This document shows, piece after piece, positions 14,955-21,489 of a stretch of DNA of 37,618 nucleotides. The notes beneath the pieces are model-generated. The model made no database searches, was not told where the DNA came from, and saw nothing but the letters and a program-made list of their open reading frames with translations. A program made the position numbers and the translations under genes. The stretch is from IMG/VR virus record IMGVR_UViG_3300036832_001633, positions 1 to 37,618 of that record, one strand, 5' to 3'. This DNA comes from a virus. Within the stretch, counting starts at the first letter, position 1. The number at the start of each line of letters is the position of its first letter.

Positions 14955-14960
14955 CCTGAC

Positions 14961-15931: not shown

Positions 15932-16212
15932 AGAAGCTCGGCAACACCCAGCGCTGGGTCCTGCAGTGGGTCAGGGACGAGCCCAACCATGCCTCCGCTC
16001 GGTCGCGCCGGGAGGTGCTGGAGTCCCTGCACAAGCGAGGTCTGACCAGCATCGACGCCCGCCTCTACGTCCGCTTCTGGGGCCGGAACAAGCCCTTCTA
16101 CCGGATCACCCCCGCAGGGGAGCAGGCTCTGGCGGAGGATCCGCTCATCGCGGAGTACGACCAGAAGGTGGCCGACACAAGTGCTGAGGCAGAGGCGACT
16201 GGACTCCTCTAA
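15928..16212 (+). CDS. Small winged-helix-like protein
   Basis: A 94-aa protein starting at the ATG at 15928, overlapping the previous gene by 4 nt. The frame is open further upstream but only as a shadow. The order of elements (NTQRWVLQWVRDEP, SRREVLESLHKRGL, then a strand FYRITPAGEQAL) is the MarR/PadR-like winged-helix pattern in which 'xYRITPAGxxxL' forms the wing and last helix. It is probably DNA-binding. Its last codons lie inside promoter copy 2, so the cassette begins within coding sequence. Confidence 0.7.
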   Translation: MKKLGNTQRWVLQWVRDEPNHASARSRREVLESLHKRGLTSIDARLYVRFWGRNKPFYRITPAGEQALAEDPLIAEYDQKVADTSAEAEATGLL

Positions 16213-16228
16213 GGAAACCTGCTAACGT
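16200..16228 (+). promoter_or_regulatory. Leaderless promoter cassette, copy 2
   Basis: TGGACT (16200-16205), 17-nt spacer, TAACGT (16223-16228), then 7 nt to the ATG at 16236. The spacer is identical to copy 1. It overlaps the stop of the winged-helix gene. Confidence 0.8.
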
Positions 16229-16235
16229 GCTTGCC

Positions 16236-16373
16236 ATGGCCACCACCAAGCCCCAGGCCGCCCGCGCCAAGCGGGCCATGAACCCCCTGGTCACCTTGCG
16301 GGCCAAGACCATCCCCTCGAAGAAGCGGGTCGCCGCCAAACGGGCCTGCCGGGGCCGGGTGGTGCAGGATTAG
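16236..16373 (+). CDS. 45-aa basic peptide (leaderless)
   Basis: A very short gene supported by its promoter. The ATG stands exactly 7 nt after the -10 box of cassette 2, and the frame runs to TAG at 16371-16373. The product begins MATTKPQAARAKRAM and is almost entirely Ala, Lys and Arg with a single Cys near the end, so it should bind nucleic acid or an acidic partner. Its first codons resemble those of the genes behind cassettes 3 and 4 (MTTK, VTTK). It is followed directly by the structured RNA region. Confidence 0.6.
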   Translation: MATTKPQAARAKRAMNPLVTLRAKTIPSKKRVAAKRACRGRVVQD

Positions 16374-16379
16374 ATCTCA

Positions 16380-16662
16380 CCGACGCATGGCACCGTCTGC
16401 GCCGGGGGCTGGGAGGCCCCTGGTGGCGGTAGTCGAGTCCATGCGAGCCAGGGCGAACGACTTGAGCCCCTGGGACTGACCTCTGACAACCAAAACCACC
16501 GAGTACGCAGGGATGCTTACCCTGCCGGAGAGAGTGGGAGGGCTCCCAAGCCCGCCAGGCTGCGATGCGACCAAGCTCCGGGTACGAGGTCAGGCAGGAC
16601 GGCAGTAGCAGTACACACCCGGACTGAAGAGCCCCCGCTTACAACGGGGGCTCTTCCCTTTT
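16380..16662 (+). ncRNA. Structured noncoding RNA with intrinsic terminator
   Basis: There is no credible ORF here, but a dense series of stems in the plus-strand transcript. GGGGC 16405-16409 pairs with 16416-16420. CCAGGGC 16448-16454 pairs with 16467-16473 (one bulge), extended by AGTC/GACT. GCAGGG 16507-16512 pairs with CCCTGC 16520-16525. GGGCT 16540-16544 pairs with AGCCC 16549-16553. TCCGGGT 16577-16583 pairs with ACCCGGA 16617-16623. A terminator stem (16628-16654) and a U-rich tail follow. The arm at 16577-16623 contains GTCAGG-N9-AGTAGC, reminiscent of the SRP RNA domain IV loops, but the apical part does not match the GGAA tetraloop form. The 5' end is unknown; it may be processed from the transcript of cassette 2. 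Confidence 0.6.
16628..16662 (+). terminator. Intrinsic terminator of the ncRNA
   Basis: AGAGCCCCCG (16628-16637), 7-nt loop, CGGGGGCTCT (16645-16654), then TCCCTTTT. A 10-bp perfect stem followed by a U-rich tract, reading rightward. It ends the transcription unit 10 nt before cassette 3. Confidence 0.9.
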
Positions 16663-16672
16663 CCGGGGCGAC

Positions 16673-16701
16673 TGGACTTCTCTAAGGAAACCTGCTAACG
16701 T
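16673..16701 (+). promoter_or_regulatory. Leaderless promoter cassette, copy 3
   Basis: TGGACT (16673-16678), 17-nt spacer, TAACGT (16696-16701), 7 nt, ATG at 16709. It differs from copies 1 and 2 by one spacer base (TTCTCTAAGG instead of TCCTCTAAGG). Confidence 0.8.
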
Positions 16702-16708
16702 GACTGCC

Positions 16709-20769: not shown

Positions 20770-21489
20770 CTAACCTACCTTGACAAACTCCAGGACCCAT
20801 TCGCAGAGGACCCTGAGGTCCCCGTTCTGGCCGTGGCGCTGGCGGCGGACATCCACCGGGGTGCGATCCAGGCACAGCCAACCCAGGCCCTCCAGGGCGC
20901 TCTGGTGCCAATCGGTGACCGGCATGACCGCGCCACCGCGGATGTGGTCGGAGATGTCCAGCAGCAGGTGCGCCCAGCGATCACAGACACGGGTCATCTC
21001 GGCCCAGGCGGCCAGGTGGAAGGACCGGTACTCCCCGCCCCACTGCAGGGTGGCGGACGAGGCCGGGTGGGGGTCCCGACCCAGGTAGTGCTTGTAGGTG
21101 TGGCGGCGTGACAGCCCCGAGCCCCTACAGGCCCTACAGGGGCTGCTCAGGTCATCGGAGAGACCTGTCCCCCGGCAGGGCTTGCAGGAGTCCCGGTTGT
21201 CGTGGTGGTCGGCCATGCGGTTGCCGAAGCAGGGCGAGGTGGCCACCCAGCGGAAGGTGCCTGCCCGAAAGGGCAATGAGAGGGCGTTGCCGACGACCTG
21301 GGTGGCCCAGGGCTTCTCGATCTCCACGCACACGGTGTAGACGCCCGGCATGACGTTCGGTCTGCTGGTCCCGGCGAAAGGGTCGAGGACGGTTGCCCCT
21401 TTGGGCAACCGGGCGGCGATGACCTCCAGGACCGGGGCGGACCAGGTGGCCGGATGCTCGGTGGGCTCAGTCGCAACGGTTGAAGTCAC
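20770..21489 (-). CDS. DNA methylase with inserted DnaJ-type zinc module
   Basis: A 239-aa amino-methyltransferase. DPFAGT near 33-38 is motif I (AdoMet binding). TSPCFGNRMADHHDNRD near 83-99 stands at motif IV, where TSPPY is usual. LQWGGEYRSFHLAAWAE and DISDHIRGG match the MADHH-type phage DNA methylases. Directly after motif IV two CxxCxGxG units (CKPCRGTG near 100, CRACRGSG near 117) are inserted, which I have not seen described in this family. The replacement of Pro-Tyr by Cys-Phe in motif IV is noteworthy. The GTG at 21489 is the likely start; it overlaps the ribonucleotide reductase gene by 23 nt. The methylated sequence is unknown. Confidence 0.8.
   Translation of the reverse strand: MTSTVATEPTEHPATWSAPVLEVIAARLPKGATVLDPFAGTSRPNVMPGVYTVCVEIEKPWATQVVGNALSLPFRAGTFRWVATSPCFGNRMADHHDNRDSCKPCRGTGLSDDLSSPCRACRGSGLSRRHTYKHYLGRDPHPASSATLQWGGEYRSFHLAAWAEMTRVCDRWAHLLLDISDHIRGGAVMPVTDWHQSALEGLGWLCLDRTPVDVRRQRHGQNGDLRVLCEWVLEFVKVG

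Follow-up and report, generated by a model that had tools for sequence, protein, structure and literature searches.

In the window, i.e. the whole 37,618-nt (37.6-kb) stretch of viral DNA from IMG/VR that was analysed here, a σA-like promoter repeat precedes a leaderless gene for a 45-aa basic peptide, whose stop codon is directly followed by a putative structured non-coding RNA (Table 1). A further copy of the repeat then starts the next leaderless gene. The initial annotation had described the intervening region as a structured RNA with at least five stems, and helices P1–P6 as well as a terminator hairpin could indeed be located, supported by homologues in the related phage records G001, G002 and G003 and by the pairing of P1. 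The hairpin at the 3′ end does resemble an intrinsic terminator, although it comprises 12 bp rather than the 10 bp originally given and is followed by a weak U-tract.

Table 1. Features at the RNA locus (window coordinates)
Feature	Position	Strand	Evidence or remark
σA-like promoter repeat GACTGGACT-CTCTAAGGAAACC-TGCTAACGT, predicted to drive peptide gene and RNA	16194..16229	+	Repeat copies
Leaderless gene, 45-aa basic peptide	16236..16373	+	Predicted co-transcription with the RNA in the window; unlinked in G002 and G003
Putative structured non-coding RNA, whole	16374..16662	+	Homologues in G001, G002 and G003; non-coding substitution pattern; covariation; 5′ end predicted
P1 helix with variable apical arm	16384..16445 (16384-16390/16439-16445)	+	7/7 Watson-Crick pairs in window and G001 and, with a different sequence, in G002
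P2 hairpin, conserved 11-nt loop GAACGRCUUGA	16448..16473 (16448-16454/16466-16473)	+	Alignment; pair counts
Multibranch core (P6, P3, P4, P5 and conserved strands)	16476..16593	+	Alignment; pair counts
P6, CUGAC/GUCAG	16476-16480/16589-16593	+	Core
P3	16507-16512/16520-16525	+	Core
P4	16526-16530/16576-16580	+	Core
P5	16535-16544/16549-16557	+	Core
Conserved single strand CUGACAAYCAAAACCACMGAG	Within 16476..16593	+	
Conserved strand GCUGCGAUGCRACCAAG	Within 16476..16593	+	
Intrinsic-terminator-like hairpin (12 bp), then CCTTTT	16626..16662 (16626-16637/16645-16656)	+	Fold; compensatory A-U to G-C change in G001
Next promoter repeat, starting the next leaderless gene	16667..16702	+	Repeat copies

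Elsewhere, the window encodes RecA together with proteins resembling a terminase, a ribonucleotide reductase (829 aa) and DNA polymerase III alpha, the latter three being presumptive assignments read off the sequences. A terminase search returned phage records of up to ~160 kb as relatives, and the nearest named phages by this protein, with ~31–33% identity, are Rhodococcus phage E3 and the Bxz1-like (cluster C) mycobacteriophages. The carriers of the RNA are large phages of one family, with relatives among the phages of actinobacteria, and the host of the window phage is likely an actinobacterium. A related terminase is also found on 152–157-kb contigs of two Streptomyces drafts (L163 and L164), which are possibly extrachromosomal prophages or contaminating phage. 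ARAGORN detects seven tRNAs in the relative G005.

Promoter repeats, the basic peptide and the RNA

The promoter repeat is present in 22 copies in the window, G001 and G002, and in 20 of these an ATG or GTG lies 6–9 nt downstream, marking leaderless genes. The copies in the window are located at 14955, 16194, 16667 and 17555; one copy on the minus strand of G002 (G002:41687) lacks a leaderless start codon and has ATA at the expected place. The repeat is absent from three other relatives (G004, G005 and G015). Cassettes of this kind are gained and lost between phages.

Two arrangements of the RNA are found. In the window and G001, a single repeat copy is followed by the peptide gene and then, with no promoter in between, by the RNA, meaning that the promoter is shared. 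In G002 and G003, the RNA instead lies directly behind a repeat of its own (TTGACT-N17-TAACGT) with no start codon, i.e. promoter and terminator enclose no ORF. The peptide is 93% identical at the amino acid level in G001 and 80% identical over 30 aa in G002 (G002:48962-49051), yet in G002 and G003 its gene sits ~6 kb from the RNA, in another operon among other genes from which the RNA is absent. The proposal that the peptide could be the partner of the RNA thus does not hold up. Likewise, to place the RNA between two cassettes is too simple a description. Judged by gene order, it appears to be the 3′ half of the peptide transcription unit in the window and G001 and a stand-alone cassette in G002 and G003.

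These two arrangements bear on the explanation that the element is a structured 3′ UTR of the peptide mRNA, either stabilising this mRNA or processed from it. The window and G001, where the RNA begins right at the peptide stop codon, could equally be accounted for by a processed 3′ UTR if taken alone, and a precedent is known from phage ΦKZ, in which a ~100-nt RNA is cut from a 3′ UTR (PMC8545117). However, the separate promoter in G002 and G003 and the distant peptide operon devoid of the RNA make a 3′ UTR an unlikely explanation of the element.

The RNA is ~290 nt long in the window and ~410 nt in G002. A short sequence, CTCACCGA, is shared between the predicted 5′ end of the G002 RNA and the bases just past the peptide stop codon in the window, which hints at a mature 5′ end near 16374.

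Homologues and searches for known RNA families

One copy of the RNA each is present in G001 (90% identity) and in G002 and G003 (83% over 234 nt); because the latter two RNAs are identical, three distinct sequences are available overall. A covariance model built from the core (model R1; 156 columns) revealed nothing convincing beyond these three records, neither in 14 records comprising terminase relatives and motif matches, nor in 50 further terminase-relative records including two Streptomyces genomes, nor in D29, Shrimp, E3, DSL-LC01 or G015. Its weak hits, at about 10–22 bits, mostly represent the searched motif itself or short pieces. When 2.9 million viral contigs were scanned for motifs in six ways, likewise only the three records were returned; such scans let divergent copies escape, and one of the six, whose gap range is off by one base and excludes the known RNAs, is hence uninformative on close relatives. 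Matches to a loose two-motif pattern were no commoner than in a reversed control. Within the searched collections, the distribution is narrow, and this limits the argument from conservation.

A search of the window and 140 kb of G002 against Rfam 15 gave no match at or above the gathering threshold, and hits to the element up to E=10 were at chance level only. As ARAGORN also found neither a tRNA nor a tmRNA in the element, the initial annotation, which saw no tRNA, tmRNA, RNase P or 6S pattern in it, is confirmed in leaving it unassigned. The element is an RNA family new to Rfam, of an already known kind of RNA.

Rfam models can overlook divergent members, and a tmRNA is carried by the distant cluster C cousins of these phages, so the element might be a divergent tmRNA, 6S/Ms1 RNA, group I intron, GOLLD/ROOL RNA, type III antitoxin RNA or reRNA/omega RNA. 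Membership of any of these classes is nevertheless even less likely than a 3′ UTR origin: no sub-threshold hit to such families was obtained up to E=10, ARAGORN was negative, the element is far smaller than GOLLD and ROOL, and no toxin, reverse transcriptase or transposon nuclease was recognised among the scanned neighbouring genes. For type III antitoxin RNAs in particular, no tandem repeats were found in the element among the repeat families listed, and the downstream gene is not conserved.

Coding potential and conserved base pairing

That the region lacks a credible ORF is borne out by the absence of any ATG-, GTG- or TTG-started ORF of at least 40 aa on the plus strand of 16374-16662. Still, the frame past the TAG of the peptide stays open to 16682 (103 codons), and its counterpart in G002 spans 137 aa from a TTG, or ~125 open codons when counted from where transcription is predicted to start, raising the question of whether a small protein is made. 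This is very unlikely. The window frame contains no ORF of at least 40 aa begun by one of these start codons; in G002, the TTG and GTG fall within the promoter, and the first codon after the predicted transcription start is GTA; indels in G001 place a TGA directly before the conserved block, breaking the sole open frame. At 65% G+C, moreover, long open frames are to be expected, and neither Pfam nor PHROGs has a match for the frame.

The substitution pattern points the same way. Between the window and G002, the core differs in 12 of 105 columns (88.6% identity), and the differences are spread 7/2/3 over the three positions of the frame. Genes compared between the same two records are 77–84% identical, with 56–73% of the changes at the third codon position and 27–41% divergence there. 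The relatives thus show neither a conserved protein-coding frame nor a third-position bias, and by this comparison it appears to be an RNA fold, not a protein gene, that is preserved in the element.

Predicted folding energy by itself sets the element only slightly apart from shuffled sequences (z = -1.88; 5 of 200 shuffles fold equally well). The case for an RNA consequently rests on sequence comparison, i.e. on the homologues, the non-coding substitutions and the pairing of P1. The window and G001 have CGCATGG/CCATGCG at this helix, and G002 has TCCCCGG/CCGGGGA. In four of the pairs both bases are replaced, yet all seven pairs form in either version, and the flanking conserved motifs, YACCG and AGTCGARU, fix the position of the helix. 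The background frequency of a 7/7 match is 0.00015.

Across the whole structure, a MAFFT alignment contains nine pairs that change on both sides, a number reached by none of 500 shuffles, and sliding the structure along the alignment yields 0–2 such pairs. Since the terminator contributes six of the nine, in part owing to a shift by one base, P1 was given the most weight. The compensatory changes that the initial annotation had suggested looking for in relatives are accordingly present in P1, the tip of P5 and the terminator. P2 differs in its bases and in the position of its bulge in each of the three RNAs and earns no credit from column counts; in our reading, it may have been rebuilt in each of them. 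P3, P4 and most of P5 and P6 do not vary among the three distinct sequences and are uninformative on pairing. Similarly, an RNAalifold column shuffle of the core alone was not significant, as its conservation leaves too little variation.

Proposed role and comparison with known phage RNAs

Beyond the terminator, a new promoter is followed by a gene that differs between the phages, namely one for a 133-aa protein in the window, another ORF in G001 and ArdC in G002. A terminator-like hairpin ending just ahead of a gene would suit a cis-acting leader or attenuator, but such a role is highly improbable given that a separate promoter past the hairpin serves the next gene in every phage, that the identity of this gene varies and that Rfam finds no riboswitch in the element; in the window, the repeat at 16667..16702 starts this gene, so the RNA is not its leader. 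The RNA is independent of both neighbouring genes in its arrangement: what lies upstream (the peptide gene or none) and downstream changes from phage to phage, which renders cis action less likely and favours an RNA acting in trans.

ArdC, which PHROGs places in the host-takeover category, is encoded downstream of the RNA in all RNA-bearing records. The best reading is that the RNA belongs to an array of promoter cassettes upstream of the ArdC anti-restriction genes. Because the promoters resemble host σA sites and ArdC is a gene of the host-takeover type, the RNA is probably made early and used in host takeover.

Taken together, the element is likely a lineage-specific phage RNA gene with a cassette promoter, a terminator-like end, a P1/P2 domain and a multibranched core, most likely acting in trans. 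Transcription would start from the σA-like cassette promoter, which the RNA owns in G002 and G003 and shares with the peptide gene in the window and G001, and would stop at the terminator-like hairpin. The transcript may then fold into a 5′ domain of P1 and P2 and a multibranched core displaying invariant unpaired strands. While the phage takes over the cell, the RNA would act in trans on a host protein or RNA, which it might contact through GAACGRCUUGA, CUGACAAYCAAAACCAC and GCUGCGAUGCRACCAAG. A bolder version, in which the cassette array is an anti-defence array and the RNA represents an undescribed class that is expressed early and disables or redirects a host factor as RNA alone, is tentative and rather doubtful.

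A search of the phage genomes themselves for antisense targets gave no excess over a reversed control in G001 and G002. In the short window, 11 antisense 11-mers were counted versus 3 in the reversed control, and none reached 13 nt or more. An apparent long antisense match at 20957-21200 in the minus-strand numbering of the window proved to be the other strand of the RNA's own locus and not a second copy.

To our knowledge, structured phage RNAs with a defined architecture have rarely been described beyond tRNAs, tmRNAs, GOLLD and ROOL, and takeover RNAs of actinophages are known chiefly through transcript maps. The present RNA offers a testable fold and invariant strands that are possible bait sequences, and its occurrence in peptide-linked and stand-alone form provides a natural contrast for separating the function of the RNA from that of the peptide.

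Among large-genome actinophages, the Bxz1-like (cluster C) mycobacteriophages are relatives by terminase (~32% identity) and carry a tmRNA. The element differs in that it is not called as a tmRNA by ARAGORN or Rfam, and model R1 is unmatched in Shrimp. The ncRNA detected by Grad-seq in ΦKZ is similarly a phage ncRNA that may derive from a 3′ UTR, but it is ~100 nt long with two stems and of unrelated sequence (PMC8545117), whereas in two records the RNA described here lies behind a promoter of its own. GOLLD and ROOL are likewise structured phage and prophage RNAs whose function is not established, yet they measure 600–800 nt or more (PMC12286853), compared with ~290 or ~410 nt here. In addition, the present RNA does not lie beside tRNA genes (ARAGORN finds no tRNA or tmRNA in the 157 kb of G002) and has no Rfam match.

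The Pleft ncRNA of cluster A mycobacteriophages, located at the right genome end of L5, D29 and StarStuff, is abundant, early and toxic to Mycobacterium smegmatis (PMC5712189). It comes from another phage group, and neither blastn of the phage collection nor model R1 on D29 revealed homology. Both, however, are non-coding actinophage RNAs inside a strong promoter unit with no conserved ORF (PMC5712189), and by analogy Pleft may be regarded as the nearest functional precedent.
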